Shown here: positions 47,281-57,766 of the stretch, in pieces
Layout of the letters: every line of letters begins with the position of its first letter
Numbering within the stretch: position 1 is the stretch's first letter
Assembly: GCF_000689395.1 (NCBI RefSeq)
Contig: NZ_HG966617.1
Location: 3,136,721 to 3,200,720 of the forward strand
Reading direction: 5' to 3'
DNA from: Candidatus Phaeomarinobacter ectocarpi
GTDB taxonomy: Bacteria > Pseudomonadota > Alphaproteobacteria > CGMCC-115125
Length of the DNA: 64,000 bases
Position numbers and translations under genes: made by a program
The notes under the pieces: generated by a model
The model's database searches: none
Told to the model about the DNA's origin: nothing
Seen by the model: only the letters and a program-made list of their open reading frames with translations

Positions 47281-48711
47281 CTAGGCGTGAAGCCCTTCTG
47301 ATCGCTCTTCCTTGACGAAGAACATCAACGCCAGACCGGCCAGCAGAAACACGAGCACGATGGACAGACCCAGCCGCTGATTGCCGGTGGCCTGGGTCAC
47401 GATCCCGATGGTGAGCGGCGCAAGGAACGTCGTTGCCTTGCCCGCCAATGCATAAAGCCCGAAGAATTCAGCCATCATGTCGCGCGGCGCAAGACGCGCC
47501 AGCATGGTGCGGCTTGAGGCAAGGGCCGGGCCAACGCCAAGCCCGAACAGACAGGCGATGACAAGAAACGCGATTTCACCCGCGCTTGAGAAGGGCGCAG
47601 CCCCTTCCGCGCGCGGCGCGACTTCAAGGACAAAGAACATCGTGTCGCTGTCCACAGAGACAAGCGCCACGGAGGTCAGGATCACGACCAGCAACGCACC
47701 AACGATTGTGCGCTTGCTGCCAATCCGCGCATCAATGACGCCCCCGAGAAAACCGCCAAGGGCCGAAAACAGCGTGACGACAATCCCGAACACGGCCAGT
47801 TCCAGGGCGCTCCAGCCGAACAGTGCACCCGCGATAATGCCGCCGAACATAAAGACTGCCGTGCAGCCATCGTAGTAGAGCATCCGGGCGATGAGATAGA
47901 GCCCGATATTGCGGAAATGACGAAGCCGCCGAAACGTTTCACGCAGCTGACGGATGCCCTGTCGCGCAGCGGCCCCGCGCTTGAGACCCGTCTTTGGCTG
48001 ATCCGGCGTCAGTAAAAACAGCGGCAGCATGAACACCAGGAACCACAGGCCTGCCAGCGGTCCGACGATGCGCTCGTCTTCATAGGCAGACCTGTCCAAC
48101 CCCAGCAGCGGCGCATCAGGAATGAAAGAGGCTTCAATGTTGCCGGGCAGCTGAAACGCAAACAGCACGATGGCCAGGGCAAAGATGCCTGCCACCTGCG
48201 CAATGCCGTAGCCAACCCCGGACAAAAGCGCCATGCGCCGTTCGGTCGAGATGTTTGGCAGCATGGCGTTGGCGAATGTCGTGACGAACTCAGCAGAGAT
48301 CGACGCCACAATGACGAGCGCCATGATCGGCAACAATGCACCGCCGGGTTCTGCAATCCACAAACCGACACAGCCGAACGAGACACCCAGCAGGAAGAAC
48401 CCGATGAACGGTTTGCGCGGGCCTGCGGCATCCGCCATGGCCCCGAGAATGGGGGACATGAGCGCGATGGCAATGCCCGCAATCGCTTGGGTGTAGCCCC
48501 AATAGGCTTGACCGTCGGCGGCGTCACCCTGGAAGAAGACATTGGCGAAATAGTTTGAGAAAAGGAAAATCGTGATCAGCGAGAAGTAGGGCTGGTTGGC
48601 CCACTCATACATCAGCCACCCGACCTGACCACCGGTGTGGTTGGACGGTTCGCCATGGGACGCTGTTTGTGTCGCCGTGTCCTCTTCGCCGCGTGGCCAG
48701 CCTTCGCTCAT
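47281..48711 (-). CDS. MFS transporter, UMF1/Atg22-like (copy 1 of 3)
   Basis: This 476-residue protein has 12 membrane helices (about 30-455). The family opening GGQVGWLMYEWANQPYFSLITIFLFSNYFA and the later AIAGIAIALMSPILGAMADAAGPRKPFIGFFLLG correspond to the paralogues next to it. UMF1/Atg22 relatives include amino-acid effluxers and other permeases; the substrate is unknown. The ATG is three bases from the stop of the second copy, so the copies are co-transcribed. Confidence 0.88.
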   Translation of the reverse strand: MSEGWPRGEEDTATQTASHGEPSNHTGGQVGWLMYEWANQPYFSLITIFLFSNYFANVFFQGDAADGQAYWGYTQAIAGIAIALMSPILGAMADAAGPRKPFIGFFLLGVSFGCVGLWIAEPGGALLPIMALVIVASISAEFVTTFANAMLPNISTERRMALLSGVGYGIAQVAGIFALAIVLFAFQLPGNIEASFIPDAPLLGLDRSAYEDERIVGPLAGLWFLVFMLPLFLLTPDQPKTGLKRGAAARQGIRQLRETFRRLRHFRNIGLYLIARMLYYDGCTAVFMFGGIIAGALFGWSALELAVFGIVVTLFSALGGFLGGVIDARIGSKRTIVGALLVVILTSVALVSVDSDTMFFVLEVAPRAEGAAPFSSAGEIAFLVIACLFGLGVGPALASSRTMLARLAPRDMMAEFFGLYALAGKATTFLAPLTIGIVTQATGNQRLGLSIVLVFLLAGLALMFFVKEERSEGLHA

Positions 48712-48714
48712 GTC

Positions 48715-50190
48715 CTAATGGTCTCCATCGGCACGCTCGGCGCGCGTCTCGTTGACGAAGATCATGACGGCCATACCCGCCAAGAGCAGGAGCAGAATGG
48801 AAGCAAAGCCCGCCCGCTGACTGTCGAACATGTCTGTCGAGATGCCCACGAGGATAGGCGCAACGAATGCCGTTGCCGTGCCCGACAGCGCATACAGACC
48901 AAAGAACTCAGTCATCATTTTTGCCGGAGCAATGCGCGCCAGCATTGTGCGCGAATTGGCGTAGGCCGCCGTGATGAAAATCGCGATGATGATCACCACG
49001 CACAAATAGAGAAGTTCCGGCAGCGTCTTGAAGAACGGCAACGACCAGATGGGGCCGGTGCTTTCATACGGCTGGAAGAAGAGTTCGTTTGGCGTGATCG
49101 AAACCGCAAGCAGCAGACCAACTGTCGTACCGCCGATTGACGTCATGATCGCGATCTTCGAGCCGAACGTATCATCGAGCCAGCCACCGATCAGGCCACC
49201 CAGCACCGCGAAGACTGACAGGATGATGCCATAGACCAGCATGTCCAGTGTGCCCCAGCCAAACACGCCGGCAGCATAGACACCGCCGAAGATCAGCACA
49301 GCGGTCTTGCCGTCATTGTAGAGCATGCGCGCACCCAGATAGGTGGCGACATTGCGGTAGTGCTTGAGCCGCATGACCGTCTGCACCACGCGCCGCACAC
49401 CCTTCTGCATGGCTTCCCACGCACCGATGGTGTTCTTGGCAGCGTCGGGCGTGAACAGGAACAAAGGCAGCGAGAAGGCCGCAAGCCACATCCCGGCCAC
49501 GGGGCCGGAAATGCGGCTGTCCTGGAACAGCGACTGGTCGAGGCCGAAAAGCGGTGTATCGGGAATAAAGCTCCACGGCACATTGCCGGGCAGCGTGAAG
49601 AACACGAGCATGAAAATCAGGATCAGCAGGCCGCCGAGATTGCCCAGCGCGAGGCCCAGTCCCGACAGAAACCCGATGCGCGAATGCGGCGCGATGGAGG
49701 GCAGCATGGAATTGTGAAACACCGCCGAAAACTCATAGGCGATGGTGATCGTCACAATGCAAAGCGCCACGCCCCAGATGCCAATGCCGCCATCACCGGG
49801 CAGGGCAAACCACAGAGCAATCATTGCAGGCACCATCACCAGCGTGAACGCAATGATCCAGGGCTTGCGCGTGCCACCAAGGTCCGCAATGGCACCAAGG
49901 AATGGAGCAAGAATGGCGATCGCCGCCCCGGCAAAGCCATTGATATAGCCCCAGATCGCCTGTCCCTGAACCGGGTCACCGACCACATGGTTGGAGAAGT
50001 AAGGCGCAAACACATAGATGGTGATCAGCAGGACATACGGGTTGCGTGCCCATTCAAAGATCGCCCAGGAAATCTGACCACGTTTGTCAGCAGGCGTGCC
50101 GCCATCAGCGGCCTGTGTGTCAGGCCCAGGGTTATCCACGCCAGCGGGTGTGGACGGGGTGATGGGAATTTCGGTGACGTCTTGTGACAA
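48715..50190 (-). CDS. MFS transporter, UMF1/Atg22-like (copy 2 of 3)
   Basis: This 491-residue protein begins at a TTG (50190), the only reasonable start in frame; the binding site GGGAGG is about ten bases upstream. It shares RGQISWAIFEWARNPYVLLITIYVFAPYFSNHVVGDPVQGQAIWGYINGFAGAAIAILAPFLGAIAD with the neighbours. Twelve helices fit the MFS fold. It is the middle copy of a three-gene array. Substrate unknown. Confidence 0.88.
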   Translation of the reverse strand: MSQDVTEIPITPSTPAGVDNPGPDTQAADGGTPADKRGQISWAIFEWARNPYVLLITIYVFAPYFSNHVVGDPVQGQAIWGYINGFAGAAIAILAPFLGAIADLGGTRKPWIIAFTLVMVPAMIALWFALPGDGGIGIWGVALCIVTITIAYEFSAVFHNSMLPSIAPHSRIGFLSGLGLALGNLGGLLILIFMLVFFTLPGNVPWSFIPDTPLFGLDQSLFQDSRISGPVAGMWLAAFSLPLFLFTPDAAKNTIGAWEAMQKGVRRVVQTVMRLKHYRNVATYLGARMLYNDGKTAVLIFGGVYAAGVFGWGTLDMLVYGIILSVFAVLGGLIGGWLDDTFGSKIAIMTSIGGTTVGLLLAVSITPNELFFQPYESTGPIWSLPFFKTLPELLYLCVVIIIAIFITAAYANSRTMLARIAPAKMMTEFFGLYALSGTATAFVAPILVGISTDMFDSQRAGFASILLLLLAGMAVMIFVNETRAERADGDH

Positions 50191-50264
50191 ACCTTGTGTG
50201 CCTCCCGGCGAGTGGGCCGCGGTTGACCCGGGTCCCGCTTATGTCGTGTTGGGGTGTGGGGAAC

Positions 50265-51692
50265 TCAATCGCTGATAGCTTCTTCCCGGCGTTCTGCGAC
50301 CCCGAAGAGCAGCATAAAGCCAACAACCAGAAAGGCTACAATCACAGCCAGGCCCGCGCGCTGGCTGTCGTATGCCAGTGTCGCCCAGGCGATGGCCAGC
50401 GGCGCCAGAAAGGCAGTGGCCTTGCCCGACAGCGCATAGAGACCGAAGAATTCCGTCATCATGCTCGGCGGCGCCATGCGGGCCAGCATCGTGCGGCTTG
50501 CCGCCTGCGCCGGGCCACCTGAAATGCCGATGAGAATACCGAACACCAGATAGATCTGTTCCCCGATGCTGGAGAACGGTGCCGCGCCGGGCTGTGGTGG
50601 GTCTACAGGAACTGTAAAAAAGATCGTGTCCGGACCAATCGAGGCAGAACCGATGGTGGCAACGATCAACCCCAAAACAGAAATCTGGATGGTGCGCTTG
50701 GACCCAATCTTGTCATCGAGCCAGCCACCAAGAAACGCACCGGCGGCTGCAAAGATCGACAGGATGATCCCGAACAGACCAAGCGTCATGATCTCCCAGC
50801 CAAAAATGCCTGCCGCATAAATGCCGCCAAACGCGAAGATGGCGGACAGGCCATCGAAGTAGAGCATGCGGGAAAACAGATAGAGCGCGATGTTGCGGAA
50901 GCGGCGCAGGTGACCCAGCGTGGTCTTGAGCTGCACAAGGCCCTGGCGCACCGCTGCGCCCGGCCGCACGCCCGTCGCTGGCGCATCCGGCGTGAACACA
51001 AAAAGCGGGATCACAAAGATCGCAAACCACATGGCGACCATGGGTCCTGAAAACCTGTCCGCCTCGGACATGGCCGGATCCAGGTCAAACAGGGGCGGCT
51101 GCCCCAGCATGGTGAGCCCGGTCTCGCGGTCGGCTGCCAGAAAGAACAGCACGATGATCAGTGCCAGGAGGCCACCCACATAGCCGATGCCCCAGCCAAA
51201 GCCGGACAACGTGCCCATGCGCCCGGATGACACAAGCGACGGCAACATGGCGTTGTTGAAAACGACGGCAATTTCCATGGCGATGGCCGCGCACGCAACC
51301 GCCACCATGATGGGCACGGGGTTGATCGCCCCTTCCCCGGGCAGGGCAAACCACAGGCAGGAAACCGCGACGCAAAAACCGACGCCGCACGCGGCAAGCC
51401 ATGGCTTGCGGCGACCGGTCTGATCCGCGATCGACCCGACGATAGGAGAGATGAAGGCAATGGCCAGCCCGGCATAGCCAAGTGCCTGACCCCACAGCGC
51501 CTGACCCAGCGTCGCGTCACCCACATAGGTGGCCGCAAAGTAGGGAGCAAAAATGAAAGTGGTGATAAGAGCGAAATAGGGCTGGTTTGCCCAGTCGAAC
51601 AATGCCCAGGAGACCTGCCCGCGACGCGGCGCAACCGGCCCGCCAATGGCACTTGTGACGCTTGGTGCGGCAGCGCCCGTTTCTACACTCAT
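50265..51692 (-). CDS. MFS transporter, UMF1/Atg22-like (copy 3 of 3)
   Basis: This 475-residue protein is taken from the ATG at 51692 (MSVETGAAAPSVTSA) because GGGGG lies six bases upstream; ATG at 51698 is also possible. It has RGQVSWALFDWANQPYFALITTFIFAPYFAATYV and LGYAGLAIAFISPIVGSIADQTGRRKPWLAACG, closely like the other two copies. The gene is next to a TetR regulator transcribed in the same direction, so the array may be under its control. Confidence 0.88.
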   Translation of the reverse strand: MSVETGAAAPSVTSAIGGPVAPRRGQVSWALFDWANQPYFALITTFIFAPYFAATYVGDATLGQALWGQALGYAGLAIAFISPIVGSIADQTGRRKPWLAACGVGFCVAVSCLWFALPGEGAINPVPIMVAVACAAIAMEIAVVFNNAMLPSLVSSGRMGTLSGFGWGIGYVGGLLALIIVLFFLAADRETGLTMLGQPPLFDLDPAMSEADRFSGPMVAMWFAIFVIPLFVFTPDAPATGVRPGAAVRQGLVQLKTTLGHLRRFRNIALYLFSRMLYFDGLSAIFAFGGIYAAGIFGWEIMTLGLFGIILSIFAAAGAFLGGWLDDKIGSKRTIQISVLGLIVATIGSASIGPDTIFFTVPVDPPQPGAAPFSSIGEQIYLVFGILIGISGGPAQAASRTMLARMAPPSMMTEFFGLYALSGKATAFLAPLAIAWATLAYDSQRAGLAVIVAFLVVGFMLLFGVAERREEAISD

Positions 51693-51758
51693 ACTCATCC
51701 CCCTGAACCCGGTGGGGACTCTAGCAGGCGTATGTGACGGGTCCACCCTGTTGACGCA

Positions 51759-52397
51759 TCATTGATCGGCAACCGCCGTGCGAAGCTCCATCGCATCCAC
51801 AAGAAGGCCGAGCGTGGTCAGCGCCCGCGTCTTCCAGTCGCTCATATCCACAAGGCCGGACACTTCGTGCTGACGCAGGCTGACATAGCCATGCAGCAGT
51901 GCCCATGTCTGCACGGCAGCGTCTTGCTTCTCCTTGTGGGTGGCCGTATCAGGCAGCAGCTTGGCCACATGGCGCAACATCGTGTTGAAGGCCTTGGCAC
52001 CGACCAGTTCGGCATCATGGGACGGCACAAACTCCGCGTCCCGTTCGCCGAAGATCAGCCGGTAGTGGGCGGCGTGGCCTTCAGCCATGTCGAGATATTG
52101 CCGCGAGGCCCGCATGATAGTGTCCCGGGCGGAGAGATCAGCATCGGCAACAGTCATGCTCTCGATGACCATTTTGAATCCCTCGATGTACAGCGCATCC
52201 AGAATGCCCTGTTTGCCCTGGAAGTGGCTGTAGATGCCGATGGTGGACGTCCCGGCCCTGGCCGCAATGGCACGGACGCTGAGCGACTGGATGCCGCCTT
52301 CAAGAAAAATGTCAGACGCCGCTGCCAGAATATTGGCCTTGGCATTGTCTGGATTTTGAGACCTGGCCTCAGTTTTTCGTGCTGTTTTGCCGCTCAT
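51759..52397 (-). CDS. TetR family transcriptional regulator
   Basis: This 212-residue regulator starts at the ATG at 52397. Its helix-turn-helix is ANILAAASDIFLEGGIQSLSVRAIAARAGTSTIGIYSHFQGKQGILDALYIEGF (residues about 20-73). The C-terminal part is helical, with FNTMLRHVAKLLPDTATHKEKQDAAVQTWALLHGYVSL. Two palindromes ATAAC-N3-GTTAT lie in its divergent promoter region. It is 66 bases upstream of the third MFS gene on the same strand, and divergent from the flavoprotein gene, so both sides are candidate targets. Confidence 0.9.
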   Translation of the reverse strand: MSGKTARKTEARSQNPDNAKANILAAASDIFLEGGIQSLSVRAIAARAGTSTIGIYSHFQGKQGILDALYIEGFKMVIESMTVADADLSARDTIMRASRQYLDMAEGHAAHYRLIFGERDAEFVPSHDAELVGAKAFNTMLRHVAKLLPDTATHKEKQDAAVQTWALLHGYVSLRQHEVSGLVDMSDWKTRALTTLGLLVDAMELRTAVADQ

Positions 52398-52441
52398 GAA
52401 AAGCATCGTTCTTGAAAATGGGAGATAGCGCTTGACACACC

Positions 52442-52485
52442 ATAACACTGTTATTAGAAATCCGCCCAGAACATAACAGCGTTAT
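52442..52485. promoter_or_regulatory. twin palindromic operators, ATAAC-N3-GTTAT
   Basis: Site 1 ATAACACTGTTAT (52442-52454) and site 2 ATAACAGCGTTAT (52473-52485) share the arms ATAAC and GTTAT around three bases. Their centres are 31 bp apart, about three helical turns, so dimers would sit on the same face of DNA. They lie between the divergent TetR gene (start 52397) and flavoprotein gene (start 52553). A TTGACA hexamer sits at 52432-52437 on the plus strand, consistent with repression of that promoter. Confidence 0.65.
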
Positions 52486-52552
52486 ATCAAAGATCAAACC
52501 GAAATCTCCTGATCCCCGCTAGGGCTGACAGACATCACAAGGGTGAAAGTTC

Positions 52553-53980
52553 ATGACCGAGATACTGGAAACGGATTATCTGATCGTCGGCGCCGGTGCC
52601 ATGGGCATGGCCTTTGCTGACACGCTGATCAGTGAAACCGACGCGCGCGTGCTGATGGTGGACGGCCACGCCAAACCCGGCGGTCACTGGAACGACGCCT
52701 ATCCCTTCGTCACCCTGCATCAGCCCGCAGCGTTTTACGGTGTTGCCTCCCGCGAACTGTCCAGCGGCCAGAAGGACCAGGTCGGCCTCAACAAGGGCAT
52801 GTACGACCTGTCGTCCGGCGCGGACGTGACCTCCTATTTTGACGACGTGATGCGACACCAGTTCCTGCCCACCGGACGCGTGCAGTATTTTCCCATGTGC
52901 CACTACACCGGCGACATGGACGCAACGCACACCTTCCACTCCATCGCCAGCGGCAGGCAATACGAAGTGAAGGTGACAAAGAAAATCGTCAACGCGACCT
53001 ATCTGAAGAACTCCGTACCCTCGACACATGTCCCCAATTTCGACGTCGCCGACGGCGTAACCTTCATGCCGCTCAACGACCTGCCGAAGATCAGCAAGAC
53101 ACCGGACAACTACGTGGTGATCGGGGGTGGCAAGACCGGCATTGATGCCTGCCTGTGGCTGCTCGAAACAGGCGTGTCACCGGACCAGATCTGCTGGATC
53201 AAGTCACGCGATGCCTGGTTGCTCAATCGTCTCAATACCCAGCCCACAGCGGAATTCTTCACGCACACCATGGGCGCGCAGGCCGCGCAGATGGAATCCA
53301 TTGCAGGCGCCAAGGACATGGAGGACATGTTTGATCGCCTCGAAGAGTCGGGCTATTTCGTGCGCATCGACAAGACCGTGCGCCCCTCCATGTTCCATGG
53401 CGCGACCATCAGCGAACTCGAACTCGAAGCCCTGCGCAGCATCAAGAACATTGTTCGTCTTGGCCGCGTCCAACATGTCGGCCAGACCGAGATTGTGCTC
53501 GACAAGGGCACCATCCCCACCAGCGCCAACGCCGTCCATGTGGACTGCTCGGCAACGGCGGTCAGCAACCGCGAGACGACGCCGGTGTTCAACGGTCACG
53601 TCATCACGCCTCAGTTTGTGCGGTCCTATCAGCCGCTGTTCAGCGCCTCGCTTATTGCTCATACAGAAGCAACCTATGGCGATGACGAAGATCTGAAAAA
53701 CCAGATTTGCGGTGTCGTGCCCCTGCCTGACACCACCGACGACTACGTCCGCTTCACCTTCGCCGCCATGATGAACCAGTACACCTGGTCCACCCGTGAA
53801 GAGATCGGTCAATGGCTTTTGACCAACCGTCTGGATGGCTTCAGCAAGACCGTGGCGGACGTCGCACAGGACGACGACGAGAAAATTGCCATCCTGAAGC
53901 GGATGCGCAAGGCAGCCGTTCCCGCCGTCACGCGGCTTGGCGAATTCATGGCCGAGATCGACAAGAAAGCCGCCGCCTAG
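52553..53980 (+). CDS. FAD/NAD(P)-binding flavoprotein oxidoreductase
   Basis: This 475-residue protein has a first dinucleotide fold TDYLIVGAGAMGMAFADTLI (G13, G15, G18) and a second, NYVVIGGGKTGIDACLWLLETG (191-196), the two-site layout of FAD monooxygenases and pyridine-nucleotide reductases. The region KPGGHWNDAYPFVTLHQPAAFYGV is similar to the flavin monooxygenase FxGxxxHxxxY-type fingerprint, but that motif is not complete. It is divergent from the TetR gene across the twin operator and 67 bases ahead of the PLP-enzyme gene on the same strand. A role in processing a substrate for, or product of, that enzyme is inferred. Confidence 0.83.
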   Translation: MTEILETDYLIVGAGAMGMAFADTLISETDARVLMVDGHAKPGGHWNDAYPFVTLHQPAAFYGVASRELSSGQKDQVGLNKGMYDLSSGADVTSYFDDVMRHQFLPTGRVQYFPMCHYTGDMDATHTFHSIASGRQYEVKVTKKIVNATYLKNSVPSTHVPNFDVADGVTFMPLNDLPKISKTPDNYVVIGGGKTGIDACLWLLETGVSPDQICWIKSRDAWLLNRLNTQPTAEFFTHTMGAQAAQMESIAGAKDMEDMFDRLEESGYFVRIDKTVRPSMFHGATISELELEALRSIKNIVRLGRVQHVGQTEIVLDKGTIPTSANAVHVDCSATAVSNRETTPVFNGHVITPQFVRSYQPLFSASLIAHTEATYGDDEDLKNQICGVVPLPDTTDDYVRFTFAAMMNQYTWSTREEIGQWLLTNRLDGFSKTVADVAQDDDEKIAILKRMRKAAVPAVTRLGEFMAEIDKKAAA

Positions 53981-54047
53981 GCGCTTGCAGCGAAGCGGGC
54001 TTCATGGTGCCATGCACTCTCAGGACAACGCTTGAGAGAACGCACAC

Positions 54048-55517
54048 ATGAGAATGCCCGCGCAAGGCCGCACAAAAGAGGATGTATTCGCCGCGCTAGA
54101 AGAGTTCGGCACGGACGATCTGGACGTCCATGGAGGCGGCACTTTCGCCTACATCTACGATGCGGGACCCGACGTCGATGACGTCGCCAAACGGGCTTAT
54201 ACACGCTACCTGACAGAAAACGCGCTCGACCCCACCGTCTATCCCAGCCTGCTGCGGTTTGAAAACGAACTGGTGGCCATGGCCATAGACCACTTGCAGG
54301 GTGATGAGGAGGTCGTCGGCAACTTCACCTCAGGCGGGACGGAAAGCTGCATGCTTGCTGTCAAAACCGCGCGCGATTATTTCCGCGAGAAGAAGCCGGA
54401 AATCACAGAACCGGAAATCATCCTGCCTGTGACCGCCCACGCGGCTTTTCAAAAGGCAGCACAATATCTGTGTCTGAAGCCCGTCCTCGTGCCGATGGAC
54501 CCGGTAACCTACAAGGCCGATCCCAAAGCCATCGAAGACGCCATTACGCCCAACACCATCCAGATTGTGGCATCTGCGGTTTCCTATGCCCATGGCGTCA
54601 TCGACCCGATCGAAGAGATCGCGGCGATCGCTAAAAAGCATGACCTGCTCTTCCATGTGGATGGCTGCATCGGCGGTTTCATGCTGCCTTACTGGCGCCG
54701 TCTTGGCGAAGACGTGCCGCCATTTTCCTTTGAGGTCGACGGCGTCACATCCATGTCAATGGATCTGCACAAATACGCCTACTGCCCCAAGGGCGCCAGC
54801 GTCATTCTGCAACGCAACAAGGACCTGCGCCGGCATCAGATTTTTACCTGTTCAAGCTGGACAGGCTACACGGTTATCAACCCGACAATCCTTTCCACCA
54901 AGACGGGCGGACCCATGGCGGCAGCGTGGGCGGTTATGAACTTCCTGGGTGACGAAGGCTACCTCTCCATCGCCGACAAAATGCTGCAGGCCACCAAGAA
55001 GATCCGGGCCGGGATTGCTGCCATGCCGGAATATGAAATTCTCGGCGACCCCGAGCTTTGCCTCGTGGCCTTCACATCAGATGTCATGAGCATCTTCCCG
55101 GTGATTGATGAAATGAAAAAGCGCGGCTGGTTCATTCAGCCTCAGCTGGGGTTCTTTGGATCAAAGGAAAACATCCACCTGTCGATTGACCAAGCGAGCC
55201 TTACCCAGGCTGACGCCATGCTGAAAGACCTGCGCGAGTGCACCGACATCGTGAAAGCAAAGAACGAAGAGGCCGTGCCCGCCGACATCAAGGAATTTGT
55301 AAAAGCGCTGACACCAGATGATTTTACGCCGGAGCTGTTTCAAGAGTTCATGAAAATGCTCGGCTCAACGGATTCAGGGGAACTGCCTGACGGCACCACG
55401 GAGATCAACGAGCTGCTCAACGTCATGGACCCGGGTGTGGCAAAAAAAGCCCTCACGGAGTACATGAACGAACTTTATGTCCCACCGCAAAAGAGCCATT
55501 CCGCAGCGGCGGAGTGA
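54048..55517 (+). CDS. PLP-dependent decarboxylase/lyase, sphingosine-1-phosphate-lyase-like
   Basis: This 489-residue group II PLP enzyme has NFTSGGTESCMLAVKTARDYF (94-114), HVDGCIGGFMLPYW (203-216, Asp205 contacts the pyridine nitrogen) and SMDLHKYAYCPKGASVI with the Schiff-base Lys242. The pattern and the later HQIFTCSSWTGYTVINPTILSTKTGG, GFFGSKENIHLSIDQASLT fit sphingosine-1-phosphate lyases more than glutamate decarboxylases. The substrate cannot be fixed. It lies in the same direction as the flavoprotein and is followed 101 bases later by bioB. Confidence 0.85.
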   Translation: MRMPAQGRTKEDVFAALEEFGTDDLDVHGGGTFAYIYDAGPDVDDVAKRAYTRYLTENALDPTVYPSLLRFENELVAMAIDHLQGDEEVVGNFTSGGTESCMLAVKTARDYFREKKPEITEPEIILPVTAHAAFQKAAQYLCLKPVLVPMDPVTYKADPKAIEDAITPNTIQIVASAVSYAHGVIDPIEEIAAIAKKHDLLFHVDGCIGGFMLPYWRRLGEDVPPFSFEVDGVTSMSMDLHKYAYCPKGASVILQRNKDLRRHQIFTCSSWTGYTVINPTILSTKTGGPMAAAWAVMNFLGDEGYLSIADKMLQATKKIRAGIAAMPEYEILGDPELCLVAFTSDVMSIFPVIDEMKKRGWFIQPQLGFFGSKENIHLSIDQASLTQADAMLKDLRECTDIVKAKNEEAVPADIKEFVKALTPDDFTPELFQEFMKMLGSTDSGELPDGTTEINELLNVMDPGVAKKALTEYMNELYVPPQKSHSAAAE

Positions 55518-55618
55518 GACGAAAGACCACACAGCAGCAGGCCATTCTAGGCACTCGCAATCTATGCTCGCGGCGTCTACCCTGCTCGCACTCCATCTAG
55601 CAAGAGGCCGACCTACCC

Positions 55619-56653: not shown

Positions 56654-56668
56654 CATCCGGGACATGTG

Positions 56669-57766
56669 ATGGTCGCCTACTTCCAGCCGGACTATTACGC
56701 CTTCCGAAACCAGTTCCGCGAACTGGCGACCCAGCGCGGATTTGCACTTGAGGCCCACACCCTCAAGGCCAAAGGCCCTGGCGACCGCGACCTCACCATA
56801 GACACGGCCTATCTGGGTCCAATGATCACCGACACATCTGGCCCGGCCCGTGTCTTTGCGGTGAGCTGCGGCACCCATGGAACGGAAGGCCCGTCCGGCT
56901 CCGCCGTGCAGGCACAGTTCCTCAACGACATGCTGGACGAACTAACGCTGCCGGACGACGGAGCGATCCTGCTCGTGCACGCGCACAACCCCTATGGCTT
57001 TGCCTGGGTGCGGCGACAGAACGAAGACAATGTGGACATCAACCGCAACTTTCTTGAGCCGGAAGACCCGCGCCCCACATCGCAGAACTACCGCGACGTA
57101 TACGACATCCTGAACCCGACGGATCTGACGGACGAAACAACGGCGGAGTTCGTTGAGAAAGCCTGGGCGCTGGTCGACAAGCACGGCATGGCCTGGGTGC
57201 AGCAGGCGTTCACGGAAGGTCAGTATGAGTTTCCCCGCGGTGTCTACTATGGCGGCAAGGAACGCGTTGAATCCAACCGGCGTCTCTCAGGCATCTATGG
57301 CGATGTCCTGCGCCACGCCAAGGAAGCCGTCCTGATCGACATGCACACCGGTGCCGGCGACTACGCCACCTACGAGGCTCTGTCACGCCATGAGGTGGGC
57401 GCGCCCGGCTACCAGTGGCTGTGCGAGGCGCTGGGCGAGGAGAATGTGAAGTACCCCGCCGGCGAAGAAAGCGTCATGACGCCAACCCAGGGAAATGTGA
57501 CAGCAGGCATCTGCAAGGAAAATCCGCATGCGGACATTCGCGCATTTTCCTGCGAGATCGGCACCTTTGAAGGGGCCCGCATGATCCTCGCAGAGCGCGC
57601 GGAAGGCTGGCTATGGGCCCATGGCGACCGCGACAGCGAACAAGGCAAGGCCATCGTTGCGGAAGTCGGCGAGTGCTCGAACCCGGCTGATCCTGATTGG
57701 CGCGAAAAAGTGCTCGACATCGGCGATGAGGTCATCACCGCCTGCTGGAACAAGCTGTTTTCCTGA
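56669..57766 (+). CDS. DUF2817 zinc carboxypeptidase-like protein (M14/AstE-like)
   Basis: This 365-residue protein has FAVSCGTHGTEGPSGSAVQ (zinc-binding H..E set near residues 77-95) and NPYGFAWVRRQNEDNVDINRNF, then LIDMHTGAGDYATYEAL. These match DUF2817, a subfamily of M14-like succinylglutamate desuccinylase/aspartoacylase metallopeptidases. No signal peptide is visible. An ATG at 56669 is chosen over the GTG two codons earlier in the same frame. It follows bioB by 15 bases, so co-transcription is likely. Confidence 0.86.
   Translation: MVAYFQPDYYAFRNQFRELATQRGFALEAHTLKAKGPGDRDLTIDTAYLGPMITDTSGPARVFAVSCGTHGTEGPSGSAVQAQFLNDMLDELTLPDDGAILLVHAHNPYGFAWVRRQNEDNVDINRNFLEPEDPRPTSQNYRDVYDILNPTDLTDETTAEFVEKAWALVDKHGMAWVQQAFTEGQYEFPRGVYYGGKERVESNRRLSGIYGDVLRHAKEAVLIDMHTGAGDYATYEALSRHEVGAPGYQWLCEALGEENVKYPAGEESVMTPTQGNVTAGICKENPHADIRAFSCEIGTFEGARMILAERAEGWLWAHGDRDSEQGKAIVAEVGECSNPADPDWREKVLDIGDEVITACWNKLFS

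Follow-up and report, generated by a model that had tools for sequence, protein, structure and literature searches.

Does a run of six genes gathered around a single TetR gene encode one pathway? The question is raised by a locus of Candidatus Phaeomarinobacter ectocarpi, whose genus was described from brown algal cultures and whose genome is 3.4 Mbp (PMC4110880). We analyzed a stretch of 64,000 nucleotides (the window) from this genome (G000; 3,415,905 bases in a single contig) and compared it with the genomes of three congeners (G001, G002 and G003, the last a MAG). An earlier note on this DNA had described three UMF1/ATG22-type transporters, a TetR regulator, a flavoprotein (FLAV) and a sphingosine-phosphate (S1P)-lyase-like PLP enzyme, and had proposed that they jointly import and break down, or export, a sphingoid- or amine-like compound. 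All six ORFs are present as it described them, and they are given here with the other features of the locus.

47281-48711, minus strand: UMF1/ATG22-type MFS transporter 1 (MFS1); ORF, Pfam ATG22 152 bits, orthologues in the three congeners 84-97% identical
48715-50190, minus strand: UMF1/ATG22-type MFS transporter 2 (MFS2); ORF, ATG22 132 bits, 65-66% relative adjoining purH in G012 and G145
50265-51746, minus strand: UMF1/ATG22-type MFS transporter 3 (MFS3), first after TetR; ORF, ATG22 124 bits, relatives at 65% (G012, G145) and 57% (G128)
51759-52448, minus strand: TetR-family regulator; ORF matching TetR_N and TetR_C_33
52442-52454, no strand: predicted operator 1, ATAACACTGTTAT, from a palindrome scan
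52473-52485, no strand: predicted operator 2, ATAACAGCGTTAT, from a palindrome scan
52553-53980, plus strand: flavoprotein of predicted FMO/YpdA fold (FLAV), apparently a xenologous allele relative to the sister species; tree conflict, fold model
52600-55600, plus strand: apparently replaced or inserted block, from about codon 16 of FLAV to just before bioB; DNA identity to G002
54048-55517, plus strand: S1P-lyase-like PLP enzyme, at this site in the window's species only; family scores, congener comparison

We consider it probable that the locus is a layered assembly, built in steps around a dedicated TetR-FLAV divergon. This reading draws on sequence evidence (the palindromes and their distribution, the gene orders, a conflict in the FLAV tree, and the presence or absence of the PLP gene) and, for the fold of FLAV, on a structure model.

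In a TetR divergon, the repressor gene and its neighboring target point in opposite directions and come with paired palindromes. The same layout is seen here, with divergent genes and two palindromes in the gap between them, one of which lies in a promoter-like spacer; with its TetR_N domain and an adjacent palindromic operator, the regulator resembles TetR repressors, and among solved structures its best sequence match is the repressor Mce3R, at a weak 42 bits. None of 100 shuffles of the window had as many palindrome matches as were found, and the genome has no copy of the stricter palindrome outside the TetR-FLAV gap. Searches of the whole genomes of G000, G001, G002 and G003 found the pattern ATAACANNGTTAT confined to this gap in each. 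Thus, the TetR-centred arrangement that had been proposed holds, with two predicted operators between the divergent arms that the earlier note did not mention.

We found that the pairing of TetR and FLAV extends well beyond this genus. Among the best 80 of 537 FLAV relatives, 32 loci carry a divergent homologous TetR beside FLAV, in diverse and mostly marine bacteria, and 48 do not; on that side, the sequence extends for 800 bp or less in 5 of the 80. The sequence ATAACNNNGTTAT lies within the TetR-FLAV gap in all 32 TetR-FLAV loci (62 sites), with two copies in 30 of them, spaced 20-26 bp apart in 27 loci and 30-32 bp in the other three. Outside the gap there were no sites in these 32 loci (450,340 bases in all), nor were there any in the 48 loci without the TetR (532,620 bases). 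The 32 loci are not independent, as 10 are from Psychrobacter and one is that of Phaeomarinobacter itself. In 30 of the 32, TTGAC immediately precedes the first site on its 5' side, and thus the first operator probably fills a promoter spacer. Indeed, promoter-like hexamers for FLAV can be read by eye in the window at 52432-52437 (TTGACA) and 52455-52460 (TAGAAA), with operator 1 as their spacer; a promoter scanner called no promoter in the gap. The called start of TetR (52448) falls within this operator, so that translation probably begins at an in-frame ATG near 52406 or 52397. Unlike in described TetR divergons, neither this target flavoprotein family nor this operator was found in the literature that we searched, and for the operator sequence no related description turned up there either.

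Related sites were also seen elsewhere. In both of two Oceanicaulis genomes, a second, unlinked copy of the operator is found a short distance 5' of an SDR oxidoreductase gene (L301, 6085-6999; L302, 6136), which in the one genome that was scored matches NF006133 with 427 bits (cut-off 250). At another locus (L281, 4883-7145), a distant TetR, 30% identical to that of the window, is divergent from a gene of the RPE65/lignostilbene-dioxygenase type and is accompanied by a related site, ATAACGCTGTTAT. Extra operator sites are also found in G744, G745 and G755-G759. We took the second sites in two Sphingomonadaceae genomes, which lie within coding sequence, to be chance matches, and 70 viral contigs (L208-L277) with paired palindromes, which encode no homologue of any tested protein, to carry unrelated phage operators.

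Family matches of the flavoprotein are limited to generic dinucleotide-binding ones, and its likely class is read from its predicted structure. A model built from an alignment of 55 sequences had a mean pLDDT of 94.0 and a pTM of 0.92. In VIA-align searches with this model, YpdA ranked first (Z 20.3, rmsd 3.1, 283 residues aligned), and the other top families were a flavin monooxygenase from S. maltophilia (Z 19.8, rmsd 3.5, 286 aligned) and DiatB, which covered more of the chain (Z 18.5, rmsd 3.9, 350 aligned); a literature search on DiatB gave nothing relevant among the matches listed. An earlier and poorer model gave the same fold class with Foldseek. Like class B flavin monooxygenases, FLAV is predicted to have two dinucleotide-binding domains, with GxGxxG near the N-terminus and GGGKTG mid-chain, in a fold that YpdA-type reductases share. 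It differs from both groups in that it is 9-16% identical to them among the matches listed, and in having GGHWN and LHQP stretches and a Cys332 that are invariant within its own family. The FMO/BVMO fingerprint, FxGxxxHxxx(W/Y/F/K)(P/D/K/R), was found in none of the 55 aligned FLAV proteins. Thus, a monooxygenase chemistry for FLAV is a guess from the fold, and a reductase is possible, YpdA being the top structural match.

A frequent partner of FLAV is a DUF2855 protein, whose gene lies directly 3' of FLAV in 40 of the same best 80 of 537 loci and in 9 of 77 the two share a single open frame, which in two cases runs off the contig. The fusions, of 827-837 amino acids, are seen in L115 (7001-9499), L089, L094, L105, L114, L119 and L122, and six of these seven loci are in records with Bacteroidota titles. 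The DUF2855 homologues of the window's genome (38-39% identical) are unlinked to the locus and have no operator. We found no mention of DUF2855 in the literature searched, and no common partner in six plasmid neighborhoods of FLAV, four of which had no genes listed.

The three transporters appear to have a separate history. All three score far above the gathering score of 24.1 for Pfam ATG22 (PF11700), at 124-152 bits, and they are 43-49% identical to one another as judged from cross-matches in the congener loci. In two genomes of another family (G012 and G145), the order is heparinase-purH-NUDIX-MFS2-MFS3 (the NUDIX gene was named by eye), and in a genome of yet another family (G128) it is purH-YbjQ-MFS3-like, in each case with neither TetR nor FLAV. 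Since one or two UMF1 genes thus adjoin purH in two other families where TetR and FLAV are absent, the transporters look ancestral there; the window differs in having three in tandem behind TetR. Moreover, among the best 80 of 537 FLAV relatives, the UMF1 trio stands at FLAV only in the Phaeomarinobacter locus. Within the genus, the order TetR-MFS3-MFS2-MFS1 is kept in all four genomes. The ORFs of MFS3 and TetR are 12 bp apart in the window, with the true start of MFS3 probably at 51692-51698. From the kept order and the short distance, we infer that the transporters would be read with TetR.

On the other side of TetR, the window's species departs from its relatives. Each of the four Phaeomarinobacter genomes has TetR and FLAV between MFS3 and bioB (the contig of G003 breaks off within bioB), and G002 is the nearest to the window in six neighboring genes (91-99% amino acid identity). 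The DNA of the window and G002 is 94-98% identical over 52400-52599, falls to 71-84% through FLAV, cannot be aligned over the PLP gene, and is mostly 90-100% identical again from bioB, which puts the breakpoints near 52600 and 55600. In agreement with this, the FLAV proteins of the window and G002 are 78% identical and those of G002 and G003 89%, with the window outside, and a tree that groups the FLAV of the window with that of G002 was rejected (AU, P = 0.003). The PLP gene starts 67 bp behind FLAV in the window; none of the three congeners has it between FLAV and bioB, and we found it in none of the FLAV loci (best 80 of 537). In the window's species, a divergent allele thus appears to have taken the place of FLAV and the PLP gene to have been inserted, most simply as one block. 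With four genomes compared, the gene could have been lost in the other three genomes; we favor gain because the FLAV allele itself was replaced. On the far side of bioB, the window has a DUF2817 gene (279 bits; 56666-57766) between bioB and DedA that is absent there in G001 and G002 (the G003 contig ends within bioB), and thus a second insertion flanks bioB.

We considered what the PLP enzyme might do. Its best solved relatives are S1P lyases (StSPL, 3mad, 316 bits; the tyrosine decarboxylase MfnA, 117 bits), and the S1P-lyase-like label given in the earlier note is correct at the family level. A glutamate or tyrosine decarboxylase, which that note had raised as an alternative identity, does not fit, as the scores fall under the NCBIfam equivalog cut-offs (228 vs 299 bits for TIGR03812; 110 vs 380 for TIGR01788). 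The enzyme is 40% identical over 429 residues to StSPL, of the group II PLP decarboxylase fold. By the residue positions in the StSPL table of PMC6148460, seven of the eight PLP-binding residues (K311, H310, H201, D274, C276, G168 and T169) are identical and the eighth, S353, is Thr; Y249 and, in the phosphate site, Y105, N126 and K317 are kept as well. It differs from StSPL in that H129 is replaced by Asp and A103 by Tyr, and in its place behind a flavoprotein gene; the substrate-entry residue Y482 aligns with E416 in a weak C-terminal alignment and has no clear equivalent. In a Burkholderia enzyme of proven S1P-lyase activity, H129 is replaced by Gln (PMC6148460), so that the Asp does not exclude this activity. 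The enzyme probably cleaves an amino-alcohol.

The origin of the PLP gene is less evident. S1P-lyase-like matches at E 1e-40 occur in 45 of the 385 genomes of a class sample, that of the window included, and the closest relative of the PLP enzyme there is 44% identical. Only four genomes of a 398-genome phylum sample pass E 1e-90, all of them alphaproteobacteria and one of them the window's own. The nearest full-length relative, 40% identical over nearly the full length, is from Nonomuraea, and among 34 S1P-lyase-like relatives the Asp at the H129 position is common only to Nonomuraea. Thus, no close relative came up that might point to a donor. In Nonomuraea (L176, 4766-7455), an MFS_2 transporter gene is followed by the S1P-lyase-like gene, which has the same N-x-L-D-P stretch as that of the window. 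The window's genome has a second S1P-lyase-like gene (L002, G000:C1:760512-761741), 40% identical to the first; each of the three congeners has relatives of it.

For a sphingolipid pathway of its own, the genome offers no obvious starting enzyme. All serine palmitoyltransferase models fell below their cut-offs, a search in which a quite different synthase would be missed, and the BioF/Kbl-type acyltransferase family model had only two matches, BioF and 5-aminolevulinate synthase. Since no serine palmitoyltransferase scored above cut-off, the PLP enzyme serves no obvious home-made sphingolipid pathway, which is ruled against on this ground, and a sphingoid substrate, if there is one, would come from outside, e.g. 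from an algal host.

These results bear directly on whether the six genes form a single co-regulated pathway for the import and degradation, or export, of a sphingoid- or amine-type compound. The genes are set out as two arms around a single TetR and its pair of predicted operators, the PLP gene closely follows FLAV, its product keeps most cofactor residues and three phosphate-site residues of S1P lyase, its Nonomuraea relative stands directly behind a transporter gene, and brown algae, with which the genus is associated (PMC4110880), could supply long-chain bases from outside. Against this, the PLP gene is missing from the congeners and from the FLAV loci, the relatives of the transporters adjoin purH with neither TetR nor FLAV, no serine palmitoyltransferase scores above cut-off, and in the enzyme itself H129 is Asp and Y482 lacks a clear equivalent. 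We therefore regard a single pathway as very unlikely: genome-neighborhood comparison, the check that the earlier note had suggested, bore out the pairing of TetR with FLAV, but spoke against the PLP enzyme and transporters as part of one functional set.

Two further explanations were considered. If house-keeping, purH-linked UMF1 genes had simply come to lie beside a TetR-FLAV pair and a PLP insertion, all unrelated and with no common function, every layer might be expected alone elsewhere, and indeed each is. The gene order kept in all four genomes and the 12 bp between TetR and the MFS3 ORF do not sit easily with such chance juxtaposition, which we consider unlikely. The locus might instead serve in defense, with TetR sensing a toxic algal or bacterial compound, FLAV inactivating it and the UMF1 trio expelling it. 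A regulator, an oxidoreductase and transporters on one divergon would suit this role, as would the weak likeness of TetR to Mce3R, but UMF1 transporters may import instead of export, and such transporters occur in none of the 32 TetR-FLAV loci except that of Phaeomarinobacter; we find this explanation decidedly unlikely.

Most likely, TetR and FLAV are a locally autoregulated oxidation module to which lineages make their own additions. For the layered assembly that we favor, we infer the following course of events. A TetR dimer would bind the two 13-bp palindromes between tetR and FLAV; with operator 1 in the spacer of the FLAV promoter, binding would block FLAV and probably also TetR and the transporters behind it, until a small molecule lifts the block. 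FLAV, as a predicted FAD/NADPH two-domain protein of the flavin-monooxygenase/YpdA fold, would most likely oxidize that molecule or a derivative, and in many other bacteria the DUF2855 protein, sometimes fused to FLAV, may carry out a linked step. Older, purH-linked UMF1 transporters would be the neighbors of the divergon in Ca. Phaeomarinobacter; now downstream of TetR, they may move the substrate or the product. In the window's species, FLAV would then have been exchanged for a divergent allele, with the S1P-lyase-like gene coming in behind. More tentatively, and with somewhat less than even confidence, we suggest that mostly marine bacteria share an undescribed inducible oxidation module, TetR-FLAV(-DUF2855), that has spread horizontally and acts on a lipophilic algal or bacterial metabolite, and to which hosts add downstream enzymes and transporters of their own, here an S1P-lyase-like enzyme that arrived with the replaced FLAV allele.

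Our firmest new finding is a dedicated module of TetR, predicted operator and flavoprotein, widely distributed in mostly marine bacteria, in which FLAV is sometimes fused to DUF2855. This flavoprotein family is widespread and has had no reaction assigned to it; its dedicated repressor, defined operator and fusion partner now offer a handle for tests, and the operator permits ligand discovery with a simple reporter strain. The locus also illustrates that an apparent single-pathway gene set can be three separate layers, which annotation based on gene neighborhoods would misread as sphingolipid catabolism.
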